NCBI RefSeq assembly: GCF_004341515.1
Contig: NZ_SLZF01000001.1
Coordinates: 868,001-932,000, forward strand
Length of the DNA: 64,000 nucleotides
DNA from: Allobosea sp. BK604
GTDB taxonomy: Bacteria; Pseudomonadota; Alphaproteobacteria; Rhizobiales; Beijerinckiaceae
Reading direction: 5' to 3'
The position numbers and the translations under genes are program-made. Positions 12,063-34,692 of the stretch are shown one piece after another. Position 1 is the stretch's first letter; each line of letters starts with the position of its first letter. Below the pieces are notes generated by a model, which saw only the letters and a program-made list of their open reading frames with translations, was not told the DNA's origin and made no database searches.

Positions 12063-13174
12063 ATCTCGTCCGTCGCGAGCGAGCGGGCCAGATCGAGCAA
12101 GCTCCCGCCATTCAGCCCGTCGAGCAGACTGAAATGGTTTGCTCCCGACACGACAAGCGGCGCCGAGACACCCCAGGCGTCGGCGAGCGCGGCCGATTGC
12201 CATTTGAACTCGTCGCTCTCACCCTCTCCGACGGCCAGCTCCAACCGAACATTGCTGGGAGGAGGCCTGCGCCTTGGACTCAGCCGCATCGCATAATCGG
12301 GATCGTCGAAACCGAGCAGCCGCCCGAGCGGCAAATGGCCGAGCGGCTCGAGCTCGTACAGGCCGGAGAGGAGCAGCGCCGAGCGGAGCCGCGGCGCATC
12401 CGGTTCACAGAGCGCCATGGCCGCGAGATGCGCACCAGCGGAATGCCCGCACAAATGCAGGCGCGATCCATCGACGCCGAGACTGTCGGCTTCGCGCGCC
12501 AGAAAATTCAACGCCGCGACGGTTTGCGTGACCGCGCGCGCGACACTGTTGTCGGGCGCCAGTCCATAGTTGGGCAGGGCGACGGCATAACCGGCGGCGA
12601 CCATCCCACGCGCGAACTGCGCATGCTGGAGCTTGTCCGAAGCCTGCCAGTAACCGCCATGGACGAGCACCCAGACGGGTGGCCGCTCGACGCCATCAGG
12701 CTTGAAAAGATCGAGCGTCTCGAAGCGATCCTCGCCATAGGCGAGATCGAGACCCGGATGCGTGGCGCGGTAGGCGTCACCATCCCGGCTCCATTGCCTG
12801 AACAGCGCGAGCATATCCGCCTGCAGCCGCGGACTGTATTGCCGGCCGAGCTGCGGCAGGCTGTAGCCGCGCACCAGCTTGTCCGGAACAGGCTGGGCCG
12901 GCGCGATGCGTGCACGCACCGTCAGGCCGGGATCGGACGAGCGCAGCAAGGTGATCGGCGGCCTGAAGCCGATCAGGACTTCGCGATAGGCGAGGTCGAC
13001 GAGATGGCGCGACGGATGGAAAGCCGCCGGCTCGGGCACTTCCCAGACCATATCGAGGAGATGCTGCGGACCACGACCGGCCGCGATCAGCTTGTCGAGC
13101 AGCAGCGTCAACGCCTCGCGCAACGCTTCGACCACGTCGTGTTCCAGTGTGGCGACGATGATCTCGTCGGCCAT
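12059..13174 (-). CDS. RidA-like domain fused to alpha/beta hydrolase (arylformamidase-like)
   Basis: The protein has two parts. The first about 95 residues (EIIVATLEHDVVEAL, HLLDMVWEVPEPAAF, AYREVLIGFRPPITLL, GLTVRARIA) follow the secondary-structure and spacing pattern of a RidA domain but are diverged. The rest is an alpha/beta hydrolase like kynurenine formamidase or acetyl-esterase, with oxyanion motif HGGYW near 172, nucleophile elbow LCGHSAGAH (Ser near 245) and C-terminal GANHFS carrying the likely catalytic His. ATG 13174 follows the livF stop by one base; an upstream ATG at 13189 overlaps livF and is possible. Next to 3-hydroxyanthranilate dioxygenase, hydrolysis of an N-formyl or amide aminoaromatic is a reasonable role. 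The RidA assignment is by pattern and less certain than the hydrolase. Confidence 0.75.
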   Translation of the reverse strand: MADEIIVATLEHDVVEALREALTLLLDKLIAAGRGPQHLLDMVWEVPEPAAFHPSRHLVDLAYREVLIGFRPPITLLRSSDPGLTVRARIAPAQPVPDKLVRGYSLPQLGRQYSPRLQADMLALFRQWSRDGDAYRATHPGLDLAYGEDRFETLDLFKPDGVERPPVWVLVHGGYWQASDKLQHAQFARGMVAAGYAVALPNYGLAPDNSVARAVTQTVAALNFLAREADSLGVDGSRLHLCGHSAGAHLAAMALCEPDAPRLRSALLLSGLYELEPLGHLPLGRLLGFDDPDYAMRLSPRRRPPPSNVRLELAVGEGESDEFKWQSAALADAWGVSAPLVVSGANHFSLLDGLNGGSLLDLARSLATDEI

Positions 13175-17890: not shown

Positions 17891-19461
<1,571 letters not shown>

Positions 19462-22083: not shown

Positions 22084-22977
22084 ATGAATGTTACTCTCAA
22101 GCAGGTCCGCGCCTTCTTGGAAGTAGCGAAGCTGAGCAGCTTCACGCGGGCGAGCGAGCGATTGAATGCCACACAATCATCGCTCTCCGTGCTTATTCGC
22201 GAGCTCGAGGCCGAACTTCAGACCAAACTGCTCGACCGTACGACCCGCAAAGTCGAGGTGACTGAGGCCGGACGTGAATTTCTGCCCTTCGCCGAGAGAA
22301 TCCTCGCCGAGTTGGGGCATGGCGTCGAGGCGACGCGCGAGATCGTCGCCCGTCGCCGTGGCCGCGTAAGCATAGCTGCATCGCCGCTGGCGGCGGCCGC
22401 GCTCCTGCCGAAGGTCATCGCCAAGTTTCGCACGGCCTATCCCGGCATCAGCGTGGTTCTCGAGGAGTTTCGGCCGGAACAAGTCGCGACCCGCGTGGCG
22501 AATTCCCTCTCGGATTGCGGGGTCGGCGTCTTCGACACCAAGGACGATGGGCTGACGAGCACACCGATCTTCCAGGAAAGGCAGATGCTGGTCTGTGCCC
22601 GCAATCATCCCCTGGCGCTCAAGGATGAGGTCGGCTGGGCTGATCTGGCCGGTCATCCGTTGATCGCGGTGACGTCGGAGAGTGCCGCTCGGCGCAGGCT
22701 CGATCGGCAGTTCGCGCTGGCCGGGGTCTCGATCCAACCGAGCTTCGAGGTCCGCAACATGATCACGATGCTCGGGCTGGTCGACGCGAACCTGGGCATC
22801 GCCGTCTGGCCCTCGTGGGCAAGCGCCCTCGCCCGCTCTTTCGACATCGAGCTGCGCCCGCTCGTCCGGCCGAACGCGATGCACGTCGTCTCTGTCGTCG
22901 TCGCCAAGGATCGCGCCCAATCGCCCGCCCTCGAAGCCTTCATCGAGATGCTGCGGTCGCACGACGCGCATCAATAG
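22084..22977 (+). CDS. LysR-family transcriptional regulator
   Basis: The 297-residue LysR protein is a clear paralogue of the preceding gene (TLKQVRAFLEVAKLSSFTRASERLNATQSSLSVLIRELEAELQTKLLDR against the first regulator's helix). The substrate-binding domain contains RRRGRVSIAASPLAAAALLPKVIAKFR. ATG 22084 follows AGGAAAAC. Two similar regulators in tandem suggest duplication with divergence toward different inducers. Its target may be the same cluster or genes elsewhere; there is no divergent partner of its own. Confidence 0.92.
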   Translation: MNVTLKQVRAFLEVAKLSSFTRASERLNATQSSLSVLIRELEAELQTKLLDRTTRKVEVTEAGREFLPFAERILAELGHGVEATREIVARRRGRVSIAASPLAAAALLPKVIAKFRTAYPGISVVLEEFRPEQVATRVANSLSDCGVGVFDTKDDGLTSTPIFQERQMLVCARNHPLALKDEVGWADLAGHPLIAVTSESAARRRLDRQFALAGVSIQPSFEVRNMITMLGLVDANLGIAVWPSWASALARSFDIELRPLVRPNAMHVVSVVVAKDRAQSPALEAFIEMLRSHDAHQ

Positions 22978-23022
22978 AGCATTTTCGAGCGAAGTGGACA
23001 CCGGTTCGCGTGAAGAAAATGC
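22977..23022. repeat. Dispersed 46-base intergenic element, copy 1
   Basis: This 46-base palindromic element starts GAGCATTTTCGAGCGAAGTG and ends GGTTCGCGTGAAGAAAATGC. Its ends GAGCATTTTC/GAAAATGC pair imperfectly. A second copy lies at 48073-48118 with 44 of 46 identical positions. Such sequences are common between Rhizobiales genes. It begins at the stop codon of the LysR gene and directly precedes a second hairpin. Confidence 0.8.
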
Positions 23023-23037
23023 AATAAAACAAAAGCT

Positions 23038-23078
23038 TAGAGCATTTCCGCGTTTCGAGGAAACGCGGAAATGCTCTA
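23038..23078. repeat. Perfect 19-bp hairpin (repeat-type palindrome or terminator)
   Basis: The stem TAGAGCATTTCCGCGTTTC (23038-23056) pairs without mismatch with 23060-23078 across a 3-base GAG loop. It shares the AGAGCATTT beginning with the adjacent 46-base element, so the two look like members of one repeat family. There is no clear T-run on either side, but a perfect stem this long between the convergent LysR and GNAT genes could stop transcription from both directions. Confidence 0.75.
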
Positions 23079-23885: not shown

Positions 23886-25244
23886 TTATGACGCAGCCGG
23901 CACAGGCCGCTTTGCCTCGTCCAAGTCTGCCGAGCCCATGCGGCTCGGTTCAATGCCGAGAAGCGCGACCACGACCGCCATGAGCAGCAGCGCAGCGCTC
24001 ATCACGCTGAGAACACCGACGACGCCATAGCTGACAAAGACCGGCCCGATGAACAGCGGGACGATGATGCTGGCACTGCGGCCGACGGCGTTGCAGAGCC
24101 CGACGCCGCGCAGGCGGAATTCCGTCGGGAAGATTTCGGGAATGTAGACCGCGAACAGCGCCGCCACGAGGACGTAGATCGGGATCGTCAGAAGGAAGCC
24201 CAGCGAAACCGTGACCAGGACATCCGTCGAGAGGGCGAAGGCCGCGCTCAGCAGCACGCCGATGAGCGCCGATCCGACGATGGTGACCTTCCGGCCCAAA
24301 GCGTCACAGGCGAGAGCGCCGAGCGTGGAGCCAAGCGGGCCACCCAGGGCCATCAGCAGGGCGAAGCCGGTGCTCTTGGTGATCGTCTGCCCCTGGCTGA
24401 CGAAGAAGGTCGGCATCCAGACGATAAAGCCATAGATCAGCGTGTTCACCACCATCAGCGAGACGCTGCCCACGATCACCCGCGACAGCAGCGGCTCGCG
24501 GAAGAGCTGCCCGAGATCTCGCGCGATCGCCGGCGGCGGGGTGAGATCGGGCGCGGGCAACGCACCTCGTTCACGCTCGATCTCACGTTCGATCTCGGAA
24601 ACGAGCTTTTCGGCCTCGGCGCCGCGTCCGGCGATCTCGAGCCAACGCGGCGATTCCGGCAGCTTCGTCCGCAGCAGCCACGCAATCAGCGCGCCGATTC
24701 CACCGAGAACGAACATCACGCGCCATCCGAAGATCGGGATCAGCAGCCAGGCCATGATCGCAGACGCGGGAAGCCCCAATGTCACGGCCGTGCAGATCAT
24801 TCCCGCCCAGCGCCCGCGGGTCTTGCTCGGGAAGAATTCAGCGATGATCGAATAGCCGACCACATTCTCGGCCCCCAATCCCAGCCCCATCAGAAAACGC
24901 AGGATGATGAGCGTCTGCATATCCGGCGCAAAGGCCGAGGCGATCGCGGCGGCACCAAACAGCAGCAGGTTCCATTGGTAGGTGCGGCGCCGACCATAGC
25001 GGTCCCCGAGAAAGCCGGTGAGGAGCGCCCCCAGCGTCATGCCGACGAAGGTCGCCGAGATGAACAGGCCATTTTGCGCAAAAGTTGAAAAGCCGGTGCT
25101 GGTCGTTCCAGCCAGAACGCTGGCTGCGATATAGATGTCAAATCCCTCAAAGAACATGCCGACGGCGACAATATAAAAAAGCTTCCAGTGGAATTTTCCC
25201 ACCGGCAATCTGTCGATTCTCGCTCCGATGCTTGCAGTCGACAT
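23886..25244 (-). CDS. MFS transporter (aromatic acid:H+/sugar-type symporter)
   Basis: The 452-residue protein has twelve predicted membrane segments with the MFS motif A GDRYGRRRTYQWN after segment 2 and a matching region CDALGRKVT after segment 8. The first segment GMFFEGFDIYIAASVL carries the D/G pattern of aromatic-acid (AAHS) and metabolite:H+ symporters. ATG 25244 follows GAGGGGATAATA; further upstream in-frame sequence overlaps the RidA gene and was rejected. It is transcribed with the RidA gene under the 25692-25709 operator and probably imports the substrate of the LacI-controlled pathway. Confidence 0.9.
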   Translation of the reverse strand: MSTASIGARIDRLPVGKFHWKLFYIVAVGMFFEGFDIYIAASVLAGTTSTGFSTFAQNGLFISATFVGMTLGALLTGFLGDRYGRRRTYQWNLLLFGAAAIASAFAPDMQTLIILRFLMGLGLGAENVVGYSIIAEFFPSKTRGRWAGMICTAVTLGLPASAIMAWLLIPIFGWRVMFVLGGIGALIAWLLRTKLPESPRWLEIAGRGAEAEKLVSEIEREIERERGALPAPDLTPPPAIARDLGQLFREPLLSRVIVGSVSLMVVNTLIYGFIVWMPTFFVSQGQTITKSTGFALLMALGGPLGSTLGALACDALGRKVTIVGSALIGVLLSAAFALSTDVLVTVSLGFLLTIPIYVLVAALFAVYIPEIFPTEFRLRGVGLCNAVGRSASIIVPLFIGPVFVSYGVVGVLSVMSAALLLMAVVVALLGIEPSRMGSADLDEAKRPVPAAS

Positions 25245-25264: not shown

Positions 25265-25651
25265 TTATTCGATGACAGCGATGCCCTGAATTTCGATCAG
25301 CATGTGCGGATCGGCGAAGCCGGTGACCGTGACCGCAGCGCTCGCCGGAAAGTCGGAACCGAAGATCTCCGACCGGATCTCCGTCATTCGCGTCGTGTTT
25401 CGCGCATCGGTCAGGAAGACCGTCATGGTGACGATGTCCTTGAGGGTCGCGCCCGCTTCCTTCAGCGTCTCCTCGATGTTCCTGAAGGTCTGGTAGGTCT
25501 GTGCCTCGAAATCGCCGGCGAGCGACTTTCCATTCTCGTCCTTTTGCCCGGTATGGCCGGCAATCCAGACGATCCTGCCGCCCTCCGTAACGATTGCAGG
25601 CGAGAAGGCGCGCGTTTTCTGCCAGGTGCCCCGAACGAAAGTTTTCTTCAT
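25265..25651 (-). CDS. RidA/YjgF-family protein
   Basis: The 128-residue cytoplasmic RidA-domain protein shows SPAIVTEGGRIVWIAGHTG, EAGATLKDIVTMTVFLTDARN and PHMLIEIQGIAVI. As in the secreted RidA at 8143, the catalytic Arg position is lost (FPASAAVTV), placing it in a divergent Rid subgroup. ATG 25651 is preferred because GGAGG sits six bases upstream; GTG 25654 is in frame. It is the promoter-proximal gene before the MFS transporter and would process an enamine, imine or aminomuconate intermediate of this pathway. Confidence 0.88.
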   Translation of the reverse strand: MKKTFVRGTWQKTRAFSPAIVTEGGRIVWIAGHTGQKDENGKSLAGDFEAQTYQTFRNIEETLKEAGATLKDIVTMTVFLTDARNTTRMTEIRSEIFGSDFPASAAVTVTGFADPHMLIEIQGIAVIE

Positions 25652-25691
25652 CACATGCCTCCGTGAGAGTGCGAACGGCGCTTGCCTTGTC

Positions 25692-25709
25692 TCTGCAATC
25701 GATTGCAGA
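25692..25709. promoter_or_regulatory. LacI-type operator, site 1 (perfect 18-bp palindrome)
   Basis: TCTGCAATCGATTGCAGA is a perfect 18-bp palindrome with the central CG common to LacI/GalR operators. It lies 41 bases upstream of the RidA start on the minus strand and about 70 bases upstream of the LacI-family gene on the plus strand, so it can control both. Two close copies occur at 29209 and 29461. Confidence 0.85.
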
Positions 25710-25779
25710 AATAATCATTGCGGTCAAGCTGCCAATTCGAATACTCGCTGTCTCCTCCCCCTCTCACGCCGCATCGCGA

Positions 25780-26823
25780 ATGGAATCCGATAAAGACCAG
25801 CGCCGATCCAACGTGACCTTGAAGCAGGTCGCCGAACGCGCCGGGGTGCATGCCTCGACGGTCTCGCGGGCGCTGAATGCGGCAACGCGTTCGATGGTCG
25901 CCGAGGATGTCGTCGCTCGCGTCGAAAAGGCGGCCGCGCAGATGGGCTATCGCCGCGATCCGGTCGCGGCCAGCCTGCGGACGGGGCGATCCAAGCTGGT
26001 GGGCGTGCTCGTCCCCGACATCGTGAACCCGGTCTTCGGCCCGATCCTCAGCGGTGTCAGCGAGCTTTTCGCCTCCCAGGGCTATTCCGTCATCGTCGCC
26101 GACGTCGGTAATGACGAGAACCGTCAGTTAGAGCTCGTTCAGGGTCTCATCGCCCATCGGGTCGATGGGCTGATCCTCGCAACCGTCAGCCGTGACGATC
26201 CGCTCGTCGACTATTGCCTGAGCAGGAAGCTGCCGGCCGTGCTGGTCAACCGTGCCGAGATGCGGGCGCGCTTGCCGGCCGTGATTTCGGATGATGCCCT
26301 GGGCATGCAGCTGGCGGTGGACCACCTTGTCGAACTCGGCCATCGCACGATTGGCCATCTCGCGGGGCCGTCCCGCCACTCCACCGGCTATCTCCGGCGC
26401 AGGGGCTTCCAACTCGCGATCCTGTCGCATGGCATCGAGCTCCAGGATGCTCCCTGCCAGGACACGCTGGCCTATACCCGCGAGGAGGGCGCCGCCGCCA
26501 CGCACCGCCTGCTCGACGCCAGCCCCAATTTGACGGCGATCGCTTCGGCCAACGATCTTCTCGCCCTGGGCGCCTATGATGCACTGCGAGAGCGTGGGCT
26601 CAGCTGCCCCGCCGATATCTCGATCATCGGGCATAATGATATGCCGATGCTCGATCTCGTTTCGCCGGCGCTGACGACCGTGCGGATCAGTCACAAGCAG
26701 ATGGGCCGGCAAGCCGGGCAGTTGCTGCAGGCGGCGATCGAAAACAACGATTCCCCCCCGCATAACGTCGTCCTGCCGTCCCAACTGGTCGTCAGGGCAT
26801 CGACCGCTTCACCGCGGGCATGA
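25780..26823 (+). CDS. LacI-family transcriptional regulator
   Basis: The 347-residue repressor has an N-terminal LacI helix-turn-helix TLKQVAERAGVHASTVSRALN (residues about 10-31) and hinge helix VAASLRTGRSKLVGVLVP. The periplasmic-binding-like effector domain (VNPVFGPILSGVSELFASQGYSVIVADVGND, and SIIGHNDMPMLDLVSPALTTVR near the end) follows. ATG 25780 is the first start giving a normal LacI N-terminus; no strong ribosome site is visible. It is divergent from RidA/MFS and is the evident regulator of the three TCTGCAATCGATTGCAGA-type sites. The effector is probably the imported aromatic or a metabolite of it. Confidence 0.92.
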   Translation: MESDKDQRRSNVTLKQVAERAGVHASTVSRALNAATRSMVAEDVVARVEKAAAQMGYRRDPVAASLRTGRSKLVGVLVPDIVNPVFGPILSGVSELFASQGYSVIVADVGNDENRQLELVQGLIAHRVDGLILATVSRDDPLVDYCLSRKLPAVLVNRAEMRARLPAVISDDALGMQLAVDHLVELGHRTIGHLAGPSRHSTGYLRRRGFQLAILSHGIELQDAPCQDTLAYTREEGAAATHRLLDASPNLTAIASANDLLALGAYDALRERGLSCPADISIIGHNDMPMLDLVSPALTTVRISHKQMGRQAGQLLQAAIENNDSPPHNVVLPSQLVVRASTASPRA

Positions 26824-26862
26824 TCAAGCAGCGCGCCTGCCGGGTGGGATCGCAGCAGTGCT

Positions 26863-27783
26863 TCAGCCGAGCGCGGCCTGGCGGAAGCTATTGTCGATAT
26901 AGGCCAGGGGCGAGCCCAGGGGCTTGTCGGCATGCGTGCTGTAGCGCCGCCGCAGGTCTATCACCCGGACGACGCCTTCCGTATCGATGTCGAGCGAGCG
27001 AGTCAGGCCGCCCTGGCTGATCAGCAAATCATAGGCAGCGCCAAGCGACGCCTTGAGCTGCGGCATCTTTGCCGCGAGGATCGCGCAGGCAGCCTCTTTG
27101 TTGGCGGGGTCCGCCAACCAGCCGATACTATCGTGGAAGCCGGCGATGAAAGCCTGGAGCGTCCGCGTATTGGCTTGCGCCCAGCTGCGGCGTGCGCCTC
27201 CGACCACGCCCTGATAGCTGCCGAGAACGTCGCGAACGCGGAGCAGCCGCGCTTTGCCTTGTGCCTCGGCGGCGAGACAGAGCGGCGCATTGAGCAAGGT
27301 CGCCGTGCATGCCCCGGCGCTGAGAGCGGCCAGCCGCTCGGCGCCCGTGCCGACGCTGGCATAGCTGACATCGCCGTCGCGCAGTCCCGCCTGCTGGAGC
27401 AACTCGCGCAAGACGAAGGCGAAGCCTGTGGTCATGGCATCGACGGCCAAGGTGGTTCCGCGTAGTGCGGCAAGCGATTTGACGTCCGGTTGCGTCATCA
27501 CGCTGAGCAGACCGTCATCCACCCCCATGAAGGCGAAGAAATCGATGGGGCCTTCGAGCACCTCTTCGCCATGTCCCTCGACATAGGCGATGATGTTGTC
27601 GATGGCGGTGAGTGCGATTTGCGCCCGTCCCTCGTGCAGCTCGCGCGCCATATGGCGCGAGTTCGGCGTGAGGCTGACCTGCAGGTCGATGCCACGCTCA
27701 GTGAAGAATTTCCGCTCGAAGCCGGCGAATAGCGGCCAGTTGGAAGCCCCCGGGAACGCGATCACTTGGAGCGTATCGGCCAT
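26863..27783 (-). CDS. NMT1/SsuA-like substrate-binding protein without signal peptide
   Basis: The 306-residue protein has the type-2 binding-protein pattern: LQVIAFPGASNWPLFAGFERKFFTERGIDLQVSLTPNS, GRAQIALTAIDNIIAYVEG, LRGTTLAVDAMTTGFAFVL and ETC-type C-terminal helix. It has no signal peptide and no ABC permease or ATPase beside it. Homologous PBP-fold proteins can be enzymes such as Thi5-like or Pht5-like decarboxylases, so a cytoplasmic enzyme or sensor is plausible. ATG 27783 lies one base after the cupin gene's stop, within an operon running from the MDR gene under operator site 2. Confidence 0.82.
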   Translation of the reverse strand: MADTLQVIAFPGASNWPLFAGFERKFFTERGIDLQVSLTPNSRHMARELHEGRAQIALTAIDNIIAYVEGHGEEVLEGPIDFFAFMGVDDGLLSVMTQPDVKSLAALRGTTLAVDAMTTGFAFVLRELLQQAGLRDGDVSYASVGTGAERLAALSAGACTATLLNAPLCLAAEAQGKARLLRVRDVLGSYQGVVGGARRSWAQANTRTLQAFIAGFHDSIGWLADPANKEAACAILAAKMPQLKASLGAAYDLLISQGGLTRSLDIDTEGVVRVIDLRRRYSTHADKPLGSPLAYIDNSFRQAALG

Positions 27784-27784
27784 C

Positions 27785-28141
27785 TCAGCTGCTCGCGGGA
27801 GTGGCAGCAGGAAGGGGCATCGCCAGAAGGATGCTCGACGGGCTGTTGGAATCGTTGCGCAGTGCCCGCGCCTCGCCAGGCGCGATGCGGCAGGAATCCC
27901 CGCGGCGCAGAACGGCTTCCTCCTCGCCCGTCGATACGGTGACTTCGCCCTCGACGACGAAATACAGCTTCTCGAGGGGCGAGGTATCGAGTGAGGTCTT
28001 TCCGCCGGGCAGCAAATGCGACAACCCGAGCCAGAGCATCGAGGATGGTCCGGCCTCGTGACCCTGCAAGCGCAGGCAGCGCATGTCGTCATGGGCGGGC
28101 GGGTGGTAGAACGGCGCGTCGTTCAGCCGGGTGACATTCAT
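27785..28141 (-). CDS. Small cupin-domain protein
   Basis: The 118-residue single-domain cupin shows motif 1 around GLSHLLPGGKTSLDTSPLEKLYFVVEGEVTV and motif 2 around GDSCRIAPGEARALRNDS. The usual HxH/E metal ligands of motif 1 are largely absent (PGGKTSLDTSPLEKLYFV), so metal binding is uncertain. ATG 28141 follows GGGGGAGCTTGAG. It sits one or two bases from both neighbours in the MDR-cupin-binding-protein operon and could be a small isomerase, decarboxylase or ligand-sensing protein. Confidence 0.85.
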   Translation of the reverse strand: MNVTRLNDAPFYHPPAHDDMRCLRLQGHEAGPSSMLWLGLSHLLPGGKTSLDTSPLEKLYFVVEGEVTVSTGEEEAVLRRGDSCRIAPGEARALRNDSNSPSSILLAMPLPAATPASS

Positions 28142-28142
28142 C

Positions 28143-29174
28143 TCAAGCTCCCCCAGGGACCAGGACAAGGCGATCGCGCGAGGAGCCGAGCACCTTGGCA
28201 TAGGCCTCCTTCGCCTGATCGAGCGTGTAGATTGAAGACGGCAGGACCGGGAATGGCTTGAGCGCGCCGCTTTCGAAGCTCGGGACCATCTGCCCGAGGA
28301 TGGCGATCGTCTCGGCCGTACTCAGGGCCAGCGTATCGATCCCGACAAATGTCTGCTGTCCGCGATAGAATTGCAGGATATCGAACGGGACGGCGCGATC
28401 GATGGTCGCAATCAGGATCTGATGCGCATGCAGCGCCAGGATCTGACGCGCCAGATCGAAATAGGGACTGCCGACCGTGTTGAAGACGATGTCGGCACCA
28501 TGTCCGTCCGTCAGCTCGCGGATCCGGGCTGCGGCCTCGGCGCCGTTGCCGCTCACGATACTGACCGGGTTGGCATGGTAGCCGTCGAAGGCCGCGCCTT
28601 CGCGCATGACCCCGATCGTCCTGGCGCCCAGCATCGAAGCGATCTGGATGGCGGCCTGCCCGACCTTGCCGGTCGCCCCGAGAACGGCCACGTTCATGCC
28701 CGCCTTCGGGAAGCCTGAACGCTCGAACCCTTTCCAGGCCGTGACGAAGGGCACGCCGACGGCGCCCGCTTCGATCATCGACATCGCACGGGGCTTTGGC
28801 AGCACATCGGCCAGGTCGACGACCAGATGCGTGCCATGGCTGCCATCCCGGCTGATGCCCAGCTCGCCGCTCGATCCCCAGACCTCCAATCCCAGCAGAT
28901 TCGTCGGTCCCTCGACGACCGTCCCGGCGAAATCACGACCCGGCGTCCTCGGCCATCTGGCGTGCGGCATCATCCCCAGCGTCGCCTTGACGTCGCTGGG
29001 ATTGACGGCTGCGGCGCTGATCTCGATCACGGCCTGCCCGGGGCCCCAGCGCACCGGCTCATGCGACATCCGCAGATCGAGCCGGGACACATCGTCCGCC
29101 TTTGCCGTCACATGCAGGCGCCGGCTCTCGCGGGAAAAAGCCGGCGGGGCGGCAGCCGCCTCGATCGCATTCAT
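28143..29174 (-). CDS. MDR-family oxidoreductase (quinone reductase/zinc-independent alcohol dehydrogenase)
   Basis: The 343-residue protein has the GroES-like N-terminal domain (VIEISAAAVNPSDVKATLGMMP, RTPGRDFAGTVVEG near 55-90) and the nucleotide-binding motif VAVLGATGKVGQAAIQIASMLGA near 165. The structural and catalytic zinc Cys/His sets of true alcohol dehydrogenases are absent, as in NADPH:quinone oxidoreductases. It is the first gene of the minus-strand operon below operator site 2. It would reduce an enone, quinone or maleylacetate-like intermediate produced by the divergent dioxygenase operon. Confidence 0.87.
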   Translation of the reverse strand: MNAIEAAAAPPAFSRESRRLHVTAKADDVSRLDLRMSHEPVRWGPGQAVIEISAAAVNPSDVKATLGMMPHARWPRTPGRDFAGTVVEGPTNLLGLEVWGSSGELGISRDGSHGTHLVVDLADVLPKPRAMSMIEAGAVGVPFVTAWKGFERSGFPKAGMNVAVLGATGKVGQAAIQIASMLGARTIGVMREGAAFDGYHANPVSIVSGNGAEAAARIRELTDGHGADIVFNTVGSPYFDLARQILALHAHQILIATIDRAVPFDILQFYRGQQTFVGIDTLALSTAETIAILGQMVPSFESGALKPFPVLPSSIYTLDQAKEAYAKVLGSSRDRLVLVPGGA

Positions 29175-29208
29175 CTCGGTCTCCAGGAAGCCCTCAGCGG
29201 CAAATCTT

Positions 29209-29225
29209 TTACAATCGATTGCAGA
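29209..29225 (-). promoter_or_regulatory. LacI-type operator, site 2
   Basis: TTACAATCGATTGCAGA on the plus strand is the exact reverse complement of site 3 at 29461-29477 over 17 bases and matches the palindrome of site 1 except for one half-site. It lies 35 bases upstream of the MDR gene start. The position and identity indicate control of the minus-strand operon by the LacI protein at 25780. Confidence 0.85.
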
Positions 29226-29460
29226 TCTCGGTCAAGAGAGATGCCTATTTTCGAACCACGCTCGCGCATCCCCACATTGCGCCCATCGAGAGGCCGCACG
29301 AGGGATCATAGGTTGGGCCTTGGGCCTTCTCGCCCTCAAAGCCACGGATATTCCCGATAGGGAAGCGGCCTGCGCCCAACCATGACGCCCGGGCGCTACG
29401 GACGGCGGCGGTTTGCCGCAAGCCGCCATCAAATGACATCGACTCGATTTCGCCTTGCTA

Positions 29461-29477
29461 TCTGCAATCGATTGTAA
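29461..29477 (+). promoter_or_regulatory. LacI-type operator, site 3
   Basis: TCTGCAATCGATTGTAA lies 25 bases before the intradiol dioxygenase start, in the same orientation relative to its gene as site 2 is to the MDR gene. The two sites flank a divergent promoter region of about 330 bases (29175-29502), which holds no gene. Together with site 1 they define one regulon. Confidence 0.85.
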
Positions 29478-29502
29478 TACCTCAAGCGCAGGGAGAAGGC
29501 GA

Positions 29503-30396
29503 ATGATCATCGAAAACCAGCAAATGGTCACGGGCGCCGTCATCGACGCGATGTCGAATGCGGAGAATCCCCGGCTGCGAGAGATCATGGCGGCCCTCGT
29601 CCGGCATGCCCACGCTTTTGCGCGCGAGGTCAAGCTGACCGAGGAGGAGTTCGAGCAGGGCCTCGCCTTCCTCAACGCCATCGGCCAGGCGACGAATGAC
29701 TCCCACAACGAAGCCGTGCTCTTCTCGGACGTCCTCGGCTTTTCCACGCTCGTGTGCCTGCTCAATAACGGCAATGCCGGCGCGACCGAGACGGCGGCTG
29801 CGCTGCTCGGCCCGTTCTGGCGGATGAACTCTCCCGCGACGGCCAATGGCGGCTCCATCCTTCGTTCGCCGACGCCGGGGCCCGCGCTTTTCGTGAATTG
29901 CCGGATCGTCGATGTCGATGGGGCTCCCATCGCCGGCGTCGAGGTCGATGTCTGGCAGGCATCGCCTGTCGGGCTTTATGAAAACCAGGATGACGATCAG
30001 GCCGACATGAACCTGCGCGGGAAGTTCCGGACCGACTCCGAAGGTCGTTTCAGCTTCCGCTCCGTCCGACCCGCCGGCTATCCCGTCCCCACGCATGGCC
30101 CCGTCGGCGACCTGCTGCGGGCGCAGCACCGCCATCCCTATCGGCCGGCGCATCTGCATTTTCTCGGCTTCAAGCAGGGCTACAAGACGCTGATCACTCA
30201 GGTCTTCGTGGCCGAAGACGATCGTCTCCAGACCGATGTCGTCTTCGGTGTGACGCGCCATCTGATCGGCACCTATGTGCGGCACGAGGACGGCGCGCCG
30301 CCCGCGGAGGGCGTCTCGCCCCCCCGGTACACGCTCGACTACGGCTTCGTCATGGAGCCCGGCGAAGCAAAACTGCCCGTTCCCCCGATCAAGTGA
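29503..30396 (+). CDS. Intradiol ring-cleavage dioxygenase (catechol/hydroxyquinol 1,2-dioxygenase type)
   Basis: The 297-residue enzyme has the N-terminal dimerisation domain of catechol and hydroxyquinol 1,2-dioxygenases (VKLTEEEFEQGLAFLNAIGQ) and the catalytic beta domain. The four Fe(III) ligands are visible: Tyr in ASPVGLYENQD, Tyr in RPAGYPVP and two His in RPAHLHF. The family signature VDGAPIAGVEVDVWQAS is present near 145. ATG 29503 has GGGAGAAGG upstream; a start at 29455 would place the operator inside coding sequence and was rejected. It opens the ring between the hydroxyls of a catechol or hydroxyquinol made by the pathway; the Mo hydroxylase in the same operon could help produce it. 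Confidence 0.93.
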   Translation: MIIENQQMVTGAVIDAMSNAENPRLREIMAALVRHAHAFAREVKLTEEEFEQGLAFLNAIGQATNDSHNEAVLFSDVLGFSTLVCLLNNGNAGATETAAALLGPFWRMNSPATANGGSILRSPTPGPALFVNCRIVDVDGAPIAGVEVDVWQASPVGLYENQDDDQADMNLRGKFRTDSEGRFSFRSVRPAGYPVPTHGPVGDLLRAQHRHPYRPAHLHFLGFKQGYKTLITQVFVAEDDRLQTDVVFGVTRHLIGTYVRHEDGAPPAEGVSPPRYTLDYGFVMEPGEAKLPVPPIK

Positions 30397-30403
30397 GGCC
30401 GAC

Positions 30404-31168
30404 ATGAGCTATCCGAAGAACCTCTCCGGAACGGTGGCGCTGATCGTCGGCGGGGCCGGAGCGATCGGCGCCGCGACCGCTCAGATGCTCGCCGCTGCGG
30501 GCGCGACGATCGTCGTGACGCACATGCCCGGCGCCGACCCGGAGCGCATGGCGAAAGACGTCATTGCACAGCTGCCGCAAGATCGGGACCACGGCCATTT
30601 CGTTGCCGATATCGTCGACACCCCGTCCCTGCTCGCCCTGCGGCAGGAGATCACCGCCCGTTACGGCCGCCTGGATATTCTGGTGAATGCCGCCGGCTTC
30701 ACCAAGCCGGTCGCACATGCCGATCTCGACAGCCTCGACGATGAGCTCATCGACAGGATGTTCCAGGTCAATTGGCGCGGCCAGTTCGCCGCAATCAGAA
30801 CCTTCGCCCCCATGCTCAAGGCGTCGGGCGACGGGCTCGTCGTCTCGATTTCGTCGATCGCCGCGTTCACCGCCGTCGGCTCGAGCATCGCCTATTGCGC
30901 GGCGAAGGCCGGGATCGATGTGATGACCAAGGCATTGGCCCGCGTGATGGCGCCGGAGGTCCGGGTGCTGGCTGTATCACCAGGCGTGGTCGACACGCAG
31001 TTCGTGCCCGGGCGCGGCGCCGATTTCAACGACAAGGTCGCCAGTTCCACGCCCCTGAAGCGCATCGGCGCCGTCGACGATATCGCAGCCGCAATCACGG
31101 CCTGCGCAACTCATCTCGGCTTTTCGACCGGCCATATCATCCAGGTCGACGGCGGGCGGGCACTGTAA
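30404..31168 (+). CDS. Short-chain dehydrogenase/reductase
   Basis: The 254-residue SDR has the cofactor motif VALIVGGAGAIGAATAQML (GxxxGxG, residues about 10-28), LVNAAGF near 92, catalytic Ser in VVSISSIAAF near 145 and YCAAK near 160 (Tyr and Lys). VSPGVVDTQF and TGHIIQVDGGRAL are typical of classical SDRs. It starts seven bases after the dioxygenase stop behind GAGG. It would oxidise or reduce a hydroxyl or keto intermediate of the pathway. Confidence 0.92.
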   Translation: MSYPKNLSGTVALIVGGAGAIGAATAQMLAAAGATIVVTHMPGADPERMAKDVIAQLPQDRDHGHFVADIVDTPSLLALRQEITARYGRLDILVNAAGFTKPVAHADLDSLDDELIDRMFQVNWRGQFAAIRTFAPMLKASGDGLVVSISSIAAFTAVGSSIAYCAAKAGIDVMTKALARVMAPEVRVLAVSPGVVDTQFVPGRGADFNDKVASSTPLKRIGAVDDIAAAITACATHLGFSTGHIIQVDGGRAL

Positions 31169-31211: not shown

Positions 31212-32093
31212 ATGCAAAACAAGGTCTTCGTCACCTGCGCCGTGACAGGCAACCTGACAATGCCGGAACAGACGCCGCACCTGCCGATCACGCCCGAACA
31301 GATTGCGACATCCGCACTCGAAGCGGCGCGAGCGGGTGCAGCTATCGCCCATATCCATGTCCGCGATCCCAGGACCGGCAAGCCTTCGACTGCATTTGAT
31401 CTCTACAAGGAGGTCGTCGATCGAATTCGTGAGAAGGACGAGGAGCTGATCCTCAACATCACGACGGGACCAGGCGGGCGTTTCGTCCCGTCGGAGGAAG
31501 ATCCCAAGATCTTCGGGCCGGGAACCACCCTGATGCGTCCGGAACTGCGCGTCGAGCACATCGCCGCGTTGAAGCCGGATATCTGCACGCTCGACCTGAA
31601 TACGATGAATTCGGGCGCCCAGGTCGTGATCAACACGCCCGGCAATGTCCGCAAGATGGCGCAGATCATTCGCCAGAGCGGCGTCAAGCCGGAAATCGAG
31701 CTGTTCGATTCCGGCGATATCGCACTGCTGCAGGATCTGGTGAAGGACGGCACCGTCGATGCCGCTCCGCTATGCTCGATCGTGATGGGTGTGCAATACG
31801 GCTTTCAGCCCTCGGCGGAGACGGTCTTGTATGCGCGCGGCCTGCTCCCGGCCGGCGCGACCTGGACGGCCTTCGGCATCGGTCGCTGGAGCTTTCCGAT
31901 GGCTGCTCAAGCGCTCATCGCCGGCGGCCATATCCGTGTGGGCATGGAGGATGCCGTCTACCTGGCGCGCGGCAAGCTGGCGCCGTCCAATGCTGTGCTG
32001 GTCGAGAAAGCCTGCGGCATCGTCGAAGCGATCGGCGCGGGTATCATGACCGCCCGCGAGGCCCGGGCCGCCCTCAAGCTGGCGGGAGCTTGA
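31212..32093 (+). CDS. BKACE-family beta-keto acid cleavage enzyme (DUF849)
   Basis: The 293-residue protein belongs to the BKACE family, Zn-dependent enzymes that condense a beta-keto acid with acetyl-CoA to give acetoacetate and a CoA ester. Family features are VFVTCAVTGNLTMPEQTPHLPITPEQIA, the metal motif AHIHVRDPRTGKPS (His/His near 48-50), LNITTGPGGRFVPS and the ELFDSGDI segment with its conserved Glu. In this operon it would handle a beta-keto acid such as a 3-oxoadipate-like product after ring cleavage. This is an alternative to the usual CoA-transferase/thiolase route and is unusual beside an intradiol dioxygenase. Confidence 0.93.
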   Translation: MQNKVFVTCAVTGNLTMPEQTPHLPITPEQIATSALEAARAGAAIAHIHVRDPRTGKPSTAFDLYKEVVDRIREKDEELILNITTGPGGRFVPSEEDPKIFGPGTTLMRPELRVEHIAALKPDICTLDLNTMNSGAQVVINTPGNVRKMAQIIRQSGVKPEIELFDSGDIALLQDLVKDGTVDAAPLCSIVMGVQYGFQPSAETVLYARGLLPAGATWTAFGIGRWSFPMAAQALIAGGHIRVGMEDAVYLARGKLAPSNAVLVEKACGIVEAIGAGIMTAREARAALKLAGA

Positions 32094-32120: not shown

Positions 32121-32591
32121 ATGGGCACAAGCTTCACACTCAACGGCGAGCCGGTCACCGTCGCAGCCGACGGAAACTCCACGCTGTTATTGGCGCTGCG
32201 GAACGAGCTCGGCCTTCAGGGCACGCGCTTCGGCTGCGGCGCCGAGGATTGCGGAGCCTGCACCGTTCTCATCGACGGCCACCTCCACTATTCCTGCGGT
32301 CAATTCGTGGAGGATACCGCCGGCAAGCATGTCGAGACGGTCGAGGGCCTGCGAGGGCCGATCGCCGATGCGCTGAGAACGGCGTTTTTCGAAGCCGGGG
32401 CAGGTCAATGCAGATATTGCCTGAGTGGCATCTTCGTCACCGCTCACGACCTGCTCATGCGCAATCGGCAGCCGGCCCGCGCGGAGATACGCGCCGCGCT
32501 GTCGCGCAATCTCTGCCGCTGCGGCGCCCATGGCAGCATCTTGCGCGGAGTGGAGAAGGCCGCAACCTTGCTCGCTGACATGGACCGGTGA
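32121..32591 (+). CDS. Molybdenum hydroxylase small subunit, 2x[2Fe-2S] (IorA/NicA-like)
   Basis: The 156-residue iron-sulfur subunit belongs to the xanthine-dehydrogenase family. The plant-type cluster ligands are in RFGCGAEDCGACTVLIDG and the following YSCGQ. The second cluster uses GQCRYCLSG and LSRNLCRCGAHGSILRGV. The length matches IorA, NicA and similar small subunits of two-component hydroxylases. It ends one base before the large-subunit start, so the two are coupled. It passes electrons from the Mo centre to an unknown acceptor; no FAD subunit or cytochrome is in the operon. Confidence 0.93.
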   Translation: MGTSFTLNGEPVTVAADGNSTLLLALRNELGLQGTRFGCGAEDCGACTVLIDGHLHYSCGQFVEDTAGKHVETVEGLRGPIADALRTAFFEAGAGQCRYCLSGIFVTAHDLLMRNRQPARAEIRAALSRNLCRCGAHGSILRGVEKAATLLADMDR

Positions 32592-32592
32592 C

Positions 32593-34692
32593 ATGGCTTC
32601 GCCAGCCCTTGCCCCACCATCTCCCGCGAATACAAGTCTCGGCGACTGGTTCGATCTCTCCCTCCCCGGCAAGGTGCTGCTGAAGACCGGCAAGGTCGAG
32701 CTCGGCCAAGGCATTTTGACAGCGCTGCTCCAGATCGCTGCCGAGGAGCTCGATCTCGAACTCGACCAGATGGACGTGCTCTCCGGGGACACCGGCCTCT
32801 CCCCGCTCGAGGCCGGCACGGTCGGCAGCATGTCCATCGAAACGTCGGGGGTCATCGTCCGGCATGCCGCGGCAGACCTGGGGCGACGCCTCCTCGACGC
32901 CGCCACGATGCGCGCTCAGGTTCCGCCCGGTCAGGTCACGGCCCGCAACGGCCGATTTCGGCGCGACGGAGAACTGCTGGCGGATACGATCTGGAGCGTC
33001 GCTGCGGATGTCGACCTCGATGTGCCGGTCGACCGCAGCGCGCCGCTCAAGCCACGCGGCAGCTACAGACTCGTCGGCACGAGCGCACCTGCCGTCGGAT
33101 CACAGGAGAAACTCGCAGGAGCGGCCTTCATCCACGACATCAACCTTCCCGGCATGCTGCATGGACGAGTCCTGCGGAAGCCGCATCCGGACGCCCGCCT
33201 CCAGCATGTCGACGTGGACCGCATCCGCGGCCGCAAAGGTGTCTCCGCGGTCGTCCTCGAGCAGGATTTCATTGGCGTGCTGGCCGAGACGGAGCACGAT
33301 CTCGACAAGGCCATGGAGCTCGTCACGGCTGCTGCCAAGTGGCTCTTGCCCGAGGCCGGGCGCCATGAGACAGCGCTCGATATCCTGCACAGGCTGCCGA
33401 GCGTCGATACCGCCATTCGCGACGACCTCGCGGCGAACGAACCAGCGCCGAACGAGCTCGTGGAGGCCACCTTCACCAAGCCACTGGTCGGTCATGGTTC
33501 GATCGGGCCCTCCTGCGGACTCGCCGTCATCCGACCAGACGGTGCGGAATTGTGGAGTCATTCCCAGACGGTCTTCGCCTTGCGTGATCAGGCCGCGCGG
33601 ATCTTGGGCTGCGATATCGAGCAGGTCAGGGTCCGCCATTCGCAGGGCGCGGGCTGCTACGGGCATAATGGCGCCGACGACGCGGCAATGGACGCGCTGC
33701 TTCTCGCCCGCGCCGTACCCGGCCGCCCGGTGCGGGTCCAATGGTCGCGCCAGGACGAACTGACCGCCGAGCCGCTCGGTTCGCCGATGAGCGTGCGGAT
33801 CGCGGCCGCCGTTGCCGGCGAGCGGATCGTCCATTGGGAGCTGGAAACGCGCTCGGGCTCGCACATCCAGCGTCCGGGCTGGAATGGCGGCGTCAACCTG
33901 CTCGGTCCCGCCGCCATCGCCGACGCCTGGAAGCCCGCCGCCCAGCGTGACCTGCCGAGCCATAATGGCGGGACCAAGAACGCGGTCGCACTCTATGATT
34001 TTCCGCAGCGCGTCGTTCATCAGTTCGTCCCGGCCATGCCGTTCAGGCTATCGGCGCTGCGCTCGCTCGGCGCCTTCGCCAATGTCTTCGCCGTCGAGAG
34101 CATGATGGACCAGCTCGCCGAGGTTGCCGGCACAGACCCCATCGCGTTTCGTCTGGCGCATCTTTCCGATCCGCGTGCGCGTGCAGTCGTCGAACGCGTC
34201 GCTGCGATATCCGGCTGGCACGAGCCGCTGCACGATGGTCGTGGCCGCGGCGTGGGCTTCGCGCGCTTCAAGAACAGCGGCAGCTATTGCGCCGTGGCCG
34301 CTATCGTGGAGGTCGACGAGCAGATTTCACTCCGTGGGCTATGGGGCGTCGTGGACCCCGGCCTGGCGATCAATCCCGACGGGATCATCGCGCAGGTTGA
34401 AGGGGGCATGATCCAGGCAGCGAGCTGGACCCTCAAGGAGGCAGTGCCGACGGAGGGCCCATTCCTCACCGCCGAAAGCTGGCGCGACTACCCGATCCTG
34501 AGCTTCGCCGAGATCCCGGACATTCAGGTCGAGATCCTTTCCGACCCGAGCCACGAGCCGGCGGGCGTGGGTGAAATCTCACTTGGTCCTACCGCCGGCG
34601 CGATCGGCAATGCTGTCGCCGCCGCGCTCGGAGCCAGAATCTACGACCTGCCGATAACGCGCGATCGCGTGATCGCGACGTTGATGGGCTAG
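32593..34692 (+). CDS. Molybdenum hydroxylase large subunit (IorB/NicB-like, MoCo-binding)
   Basis: The 699-residue protein is the molybdopterin-binding subunit of a two-component hydroxylase. It starts directly with the segment KVLLKTGKVELGQGILTALLQIAAEELDL, which contains the GQG loop, and has YRLVGTSAPAVGSQEKLAGAAFIHDI at 155-180. The catalytic Glu region is GVGEISLGPTAGAIGNAV near the C-terminus. There is no cytochrome extension as found in NicB. These enzymes hydroxylate N-heteroaromatic rings or aldehydes using water. Beside an intradiol dioxygenase it suggests breakdown of a nitrogen heterocycle or aromatic acid. ATG 32593 lies one base after the small-subunit stop. Confidence 0.9.
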   Translation: MASPALAPPSPANTSLGDWFDLSLPGKVLLKTGKVELGQGILTALLQIAAEELDLELDQMDVLSGDTGLSPLEAGTVGSMSIETSGVIVRHAAADLGRRLLDAATMRAQVPPGQVTARNGRFRRDGELLADTIWSVAADVDLDVPVDRSAPLKPRGSYRLVGTSAPAVGSQEKLAGAAFIHDINLPGMLHGRVLRKPHPDARLQHVDVDRIRGRKGVSAVVLEQDFIGVLAETEHDLDKAMELVTAAAKWLLPEAGRHETALDILHRLPSVDTAIRDDLAANEPAPNELVEATFTKPLVGHGSIGPSCGLAVIRPDGAELWSHSQTVFALRDQAARILGCDIEQVRVRHSQGAGCYGHNGADDAAMDALLLARAVPGRPVRVQWSRQDELTAEPLGSPMSVRIAAAVAGERIVHWELETRSGSHIQRPGWNGGVNLLGPAAIADAWKPAAQRDLPSHNGGTKNAVALYDFPQRVVHQFVPAMPFRLSALRSLGAFANVFAVESMMDQLAEVAGTDPIAFRLAHLSDPRARAVVERVAAISGWHEPLHDGRGRGVGFARFKNSGSYCAVAAIVEVDEQISLRGLWGVVDPGLAINPDGIIAQVEGGMIQAASWTLKEAVPTEGPFLTAESWRDYPILSFAEIPDIQVEILSDPSHEPAGVGEISLGPTAGAIGNAVAAALGARIYDLPITRDRVIATLMG

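Follow-up and report, generated by a model that had tools for sequence, protein, structure and literature searches.

A predicted LacI-family regulon with three operators around ring-cleavage genes of Allobosea sp. BK604

Regulators of the LacI family are mostly linked to sugars. In the available text of a family-wide survey, carbohydrates are the target of 176 of the 182 groups to which a pathway is assigned, and in its main text, as available, the word "aromatic" is absent (PMC4052901). The same text describes even palindromes with a central CG as typical of LacI-family sites (1173 of 1303 cases) and gives 13, 22 and 32 bp as the most frequent spacings. The closest described layouts are the tandem 21-22 bp operators of RafR (Enterobacteriales) and ScrR (Burkholderiales), which are palindromes upstream of catabolic genes (PMC4052901). 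Here we present a locus of Allobosea sp. BK604 in a window of 64,000 nucleotides, i.e., the whole stretch of DNA that was analyzed (contig NZ_SLZF01000001.1, positions 868,001 to 932,000). A gene for a LacI-family regulator and three near-identical sites, O1, O2 and O3 (Table 1), are situated among genes which are not those of a sugar-utilization regulon: an intradiol dioxygenase, a beta-keto acid cleavage enzyme (BKACE), a molybdenum (Mo) hydroxylase, a RidA-family protein and an MFS transporter nearest to aromatic acid symporters. Very probably, this is a local LacI-family regulon over three operators which is likely to be autoregulated. The observations behind this proposal are the positions of the sites, their rarity, their recurrence together with the regulator in related bacteria, and the joint absence of both.

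Direct reading of the sequence agrees with an earlier note on this DNA, which had described a perfect 18-bp palindrome and two 17-base copies that are mutually reverse-complementary. O1, TCTGCAATCGATTGCAGA, is palindromic over all 18 bp, and the 17-mers TTACAATCGATTGCAGA (29209-29225) and TCTGCAATCGATTGTAA (29461-29477) are exact reverse complements. The note had further placed the sites shortly upstream of the RidA, MDR and dioxygenase genes, with a LacI-family gene beside the first. Indeed, the ATG codons of RidA (25651) and MDR (29174), both on the minus strand, and of the dioxygenase (29503, plus strand) are 40, 34 and 25 bases away from O1 and the two 17-mers, respectively, and the LacI gene starts 70 bases from O1 (25780, plus strand). 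The notion of one shared operator requires a qualification. Three near-identical sites exist, but the full 18-bp palindrome is present only once; compared with the 18 bases of O1 the other two match at 16 and 15, and both are asymmetric. The core and the TCTGCAATC half are common to all three sites, and O2 and O3 carry a TTGT half-site.

The motif is rare. With up to three mismatches the 18-mer has three matches in the window, compared with an expectation of 0.04, and none of 100 shuffled sequences yielded three. In the organism's own genome (7,626,662 bases searched) TGCAATCGATTGCA occurs at a single place. CAATCGATTG occurs at four places, three of which are the window sites; the fourth copy is within an open reading frame on contig C16 and has unlike flanks. 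The 18-mer at up to three mismatches likewise has four places, the three window sites and one on contig C3. Genome-wide, the motif is nearly restricted to the window locus. The observation is real; an origin by chance or as a dispersed repeat is very unlikely.

A different kind of evidence comes from related bacteria. A pattern-based scan of named genomes for the dioxygenase gave 79 loci, of which 76 remained after three with short upstream DNA were dropped. A site was defined as at most two mismatches to TGCAATCGATTGCA within 300 bp upstream, a linked LacI as a protein encoded in the locus with 45% identity or more. Under the stricter LacI length, a site is present at all 23 dioxygenase loci with a linked LacI versus 2 of 53 without; counting the LacI of L089, which is cut by a contig edge, the figures are 24 of 24 and 1 of 52. 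At the same 76 loci the motif read backwards was found at none, and the means for 100 shuffled palindromes were 0.01 and 0.03 loci. Many LacI-less loci belong to a separate dioxygenase branch of 41 rows, therefore the sharper comparison is within the other branch of 48 rows: 36 have LacI and site (window included), 11 have neither, and one has the site only. All 11 genomes with a site-less dioxygenase of this related branch are devoid of the LacI subfamily at E ≤ 1e-60, although absence is weaker evidence in four, which are bins of less than 3 Mb.

Starting from the regulator the same association emerges. Of 150 genomes, 13 encode relatives of the LacI protein at E ≤ 1e-60, counting the own genome. 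Eight of the 15 loci around them (L020-L027) have a divergent dioxygenase gene with matching sites in between; seven are without dioxygenase. Another 30 LacI loci, taken from the genus of Bradyrhizobium sacchari and from the order (two are repeats, L217 = L078 and L227 = L095), include a dioxygenase gene in 15 cases. Thirteen of these genes are immediate, divergently oriented neighbors of LacI with sites in between, and those of L226 and L227 are about 8 kb away. In 11 of the remaining 15 loci a core site is close to the LacI gene. Exact TGYAATCGATTGYA was found at 19 places in 8 of 11 relative genomes, 15 of them at these LacI loci. Taken together, matching sites recur with the same genes and, with one exception, are missing wherever this LacI is missing. 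That LacI and site were lost together on independent occasions was considered as well, yet two independent pairs on well supported branches (six on all) are too few for significance. As an aside, dioxygenase relatives (62%) at L112 and L115 are in bins labeled Actinomycetota, which may reflect transfer or mis-binning.

The regulator itself is clearly a member of the family. The N-terminal helix-turn-helix (HTH) domain PF00356 scores 40.3 bits (cut-off 27) and the C-terminal periplasmic-binding-protein-like effector domain PF13377 130.5 bits (cut-off 26.5). The best NCBIfam matches are from the RbsR/CytR/GntR/PurR group, with which it shares domain order and a similar length; the scores, however, are far below the curated cut-offs (RbsR 213.6 versus 382), and none of the 20 models listed (RbsR, CytR, GntR, PurR, CcpA and others) reached its equivalog cut-off. 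Residues 12-346 of 347 align with residues 4-333 of the 360-residue lac repressor. Unlike in the E. coli-type tetrameric LacI, this alignment leaves no space for a tetramerization helix at the C-terminal position where we assume that of the lac repressor to be. DNA looping by a tetramer was set aside because the window LacI apparently lacks this helix. The sites, in turn, bear the operator trait of the family, i.e., an even palindrome with a central CG which recurs beside related regulators.

How might such a regulon operate? The LacI protein, a predicted dimer, would grip the 18-bp operators via HTH and hinge. As long as the inducer is absent it would block RNA polymerase at three places with one site each: at the divergent RidA-MFS and LacI transcripts, at the MDR-cupin-substrate-binding-protein row and at the dioxygenase-SDR-BKACE-Fer2-Mo-hydroxylase row, the genes of each row presumably being co-transcribed. 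A substrate or intermediate of the pathway would then release LacI. The pathway is envisaged to proceed from a hydroxyquinol-type ring cleavage to a beta-keto acid which BKACE would cleave. The earlier note had attributed to one LacI protein and three operators the joint control of an importer, two divergent operons and a Mo-hydroxylase pathway, a view that is supported by the rarity of the motif and its recurrence in relatives.

A promoter scan at the LacI gene found one promoter-like candidate compared with a shuffle mean of 0.2. O1 overlaps the last base of its -35 element and fills its spacer, which is consistent with autorepression. At O2 the overlap is with the spacer that follows a TTGACC hexamer. 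In both cases the promoter element is recognized solely by its match to the consensus. These overlaps make blocking of RNA polymerase the likeliest mechanism.

Several observations weigh against the proposed regulon. L062 is a true exception, with two sites and no LacI in the locus; the sole match in this genome at E ≤ 1e-60 is only 38% identical. At L095, L119 and L226 the LacI gene is more than 8 kb from the dioxygenase. In L229, L230 and L235, with LacI proteins of 54-55% identity, no site at up to two mismatches was found in about 16 kb, and L228, of the same identity, has one weak site about 0.9 kb from the LacI start. Three of the 11 relative genomes lack exact TGYAATCGATTGYA, their sites deviate, and the other 4 of the 19 exact places are upstream of xylose-isomerase-like genes, thus a similar core may serve further LacI proteins. 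The promoter scan passed no candidate at O2 and O3. At L172-L175, in both of the genomes G003 and G005, TGTAATCGATTGCA sites precede two xylose-isomerase-like genes and probably serve as operators for other LacI proteins. Finally, the own genome holds ten further, more distant LacI-family matches at E ≤ 1e-30 (48 of 48 candidates scored), which may be binders as well.

The last points lead to the most serious alternative, that the sites are bound at least partly by another LacI of the genome and that the neighboring LacI controls only RidA-MFS. Here the phylogeny is instructive. In a tree of 44 LacI proteins the window protein groups with those of L071, L075 (the copy at 18245) and L018 (support 99/94), followed by L019 (98/98), and the LacI genes of L071, L075 and L018 adjoin RidA-MFS genes. 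The dioxygenase module of relatives usually adjoins another LacI paralogue. In Bradyrhizobium sacchari (L075, L171) a site is located between the substrate-binding-protein and Fer2-Mo-hydroxylase genes beside a window-clade LacI, and the dioxygenase operon has a second LacI of its own. Similar cores at unrelated loci in two related genomes point in the same direction. On the other hand, the paralogues beside relatives' dioxygenase operons are 47-59% identical to the window LacI, whereas none of the ten in the own genome exceeds 36% (the next match has 36% and an E of 2.8e-51). The three window sites share core and TCTGCAATC half. Further, the TTGT of O2 and O3 recurs in all 9 sites listed for the window LacI clade outside the window (9 of 11 when two L019 sites are counted) compared with 6 of the 72 at the promoters of other dioxygenase genes, a contrast weakened by the mutual non-independence of the sites and by four of the six exceptions being in Microvirga. 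We therefore consider control by another LacI improbable. The simplest reading is that in the window genome the RidA-type regulator apparently also runs the dioxygenase module. L071, from Bradyrhizobium dw_411, resembles the window in that only the RidA-type LacI is present at E ≤ 1e-60. Independent origins of the arrangement in these two are not claimed since the approximately unbiased test does not reject a single dioxygenase clade (p 0.499). The idea that the operators of the two LacI clades differ cleanly was likewise abandoned, although TTGT separates most sites: L069 and L070 of Microvirga carry TTGT beside the other LacI, and L019, of the window clade, is without it.

A second alternative, that the LacI protein is an activator or a dual regulator and not a repressor, is of slightly lower probability still. 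In relatives two sites 20-24 bp apart could accommodate cooperative dimers beside a promoter. The position of O1 within the promoter-like spacer of LacI and the overlap of O2 with the TTGACC spacer rather favor blocking, as far as consensus matches go. That the sites are chance palindromes or a dispersed repeat without a regulatory role has a negligible probability: short matches with few copies can arise by chance, yet 0.04 were expected in the window, the motif is nearly confined to one locus in 7.6 Mb, and it recurs with the LacI gene across genera.

The layout of the sites in relatives resembles that of RafR and ScrR more than the window does. Among 37 distinct dioxygenase promoters with a linked LacI, two sites are present in 27, three in five and a single one in five; of the 37 spacings between neighbors 34 measure 20-24 bp, two 12 bp and one 118 bp. 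Window promoters, in contrast, hold one operator each, not pairs. A further difference is that ScrR, according to the available survey text, governs sucrose use (PMC4052901), whereas the window genes indicate ring cleavage. Allowing three mismatches produces more overlapping or extra sites, e.g., a second site at a distance of 12 bp in L082. Operators that overlap with a 12-bp spacing were seen in L008 and L009 (intergenic, 2566 and 2578) and in the dioxygenase promoters of L069 and L070; a similar overlapping class of about 13 bp is discussed as hard to explain in the survey text available (PMC4052901). Of note, the LacI proteins of L020-L023, L122 and L137 have Ala for Ser before the Arg of the recognition helix (ARAL), and their half-sites are TCGC (or GCGA), not TTGC. 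In the tree the ARAL proteins constitute one clade, thus the half-site shift is probably a single event.

Table 1. Features of the window locus (gene assignments by Pfam and NCBIfam scans).
Feature	Position	Strand	Remarks
MFS transporter	23886..25244	-	best NCBIfam match aromatic acid/H+ symport family, under its cut-off
RidA-family protein	25265..25651	-	Pfam/NCBIfam scan
Promoter-like TTGTCT-17-AATAAT for LacI gene	25687..25715	+	consensus match only
O1	25692..25709		TCTGCAATCGATTGCAGA, 18-bp perfect palindrome, central CG, amid divergent RidA/LacI genes
LacI-family regulator, 347 aa	25780..26823	+	HTH LacI PF00356 and Peripla_BP_3
Substrate-binding-protein-like (NMT1/SsuA-like) protein	26863..27783	-	domain scans
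Small cupin protein	27785..28141	-	domain scan
MDR-type enzyme (zinc-binding dehydrogenase/quinone oxidoreductase)	28143..29174	-	first gene behind O2
O2	29208..29225		TTTACAATCGATTGCAGA; read toward MDR operon TCTGCAATCGATTGTAAA
O3	29461..29478		TCTGCAATCGATTGTAAT, upstream of dioxygenase operon
Intradiol dioxygenase	29503..30396	+	first gene behind O3; nearest solved: PnpC, hydroxyquinol 1,2-dioxygenase
Short-chain dehydrogenase (SDR)	30404..31168	+	domain scans
Beta-keto acid cleavage enzyme (BKACE)	31212..32093	+	domain scans
[2Fe-2S] small subunit of Mo-hydroxylase	32121..32591	+	domain scan
Mo-hydroxylase large subunit	32593..34692	+	MoCoBD_1, MoCoBD_2

What do these genes accomplish? 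The dioxygenase possesses the N and C domains of catechol dioxygenases, and among solved structures its similarity is closest to hydroxyquinol enzymes (PnpC 3n9t, 1tmx). The aligned tyrosines and the HLH histidines, which we take to be the Fe ligands, are conserved. In contrast to the hydroxyquinol 1,2-dioxygenases, the neighbors here include BKACE and a Mo-hydroxylase. Any assignment of a substrate is provisional. The Mo-hydroxylase, RidA and an amidase gene behind a site in L018 may point to an N-heterocycle. This L018 site (12565-12582) is a further match just upstream of the amidase gene (PF01425), a possible extra member of the regulon.

The individual parts are of familiar kinds; unusual is a LacI clade tied to ring-cleavage genes and not to sugar genes. 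From gene content, the clade of the window LacI seems to control a hydroxyquinol-type ring-cleavage pathway. Among the literature matches listed, titles and abstract openings contain neither a LacI-type regulator for the catabolism of hydroxyquinol or aromatics nor the core operator string; in the available part of one of these papers (PMC13118786) LacI is mentioned once, in a cited title on another regulator. For BKACE with 3-oxoadipate the single paper listed concerns deoxyribose, and a search for beta-keto acid cleavage with intradiol found none. Tentatively, and with somewhat less than even confidence, we propose that an alphaproteobacterial LacI clade spanning several families senses aromatic or N-heteroaromatic compounds, not sugars, and that here the RidA/Mo-hydroxylase-type paralogue took over the operon of its sister, the two regulons merging via a nearly shared operator. 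If true, a LacI clade of an intradiol pathway would widen the range of ligands in this textbook family of repressors. Its sister clades, whose operators are nearly identical, would offer a natural test of the way in which paralogous repressors swap their target operons, and the regulon predicts an inducible gene set for an uncharacterized pathway.

Apart from the operators, the window has an intergenic perfect inverted repeat at 23038-23078, with 19-nt arms and a 3-nt loop. A further 13-nt near-copy is found at 22975 (feature 22975-23078), and the whole resembles a dispersed intergenic repeat or a terminator.

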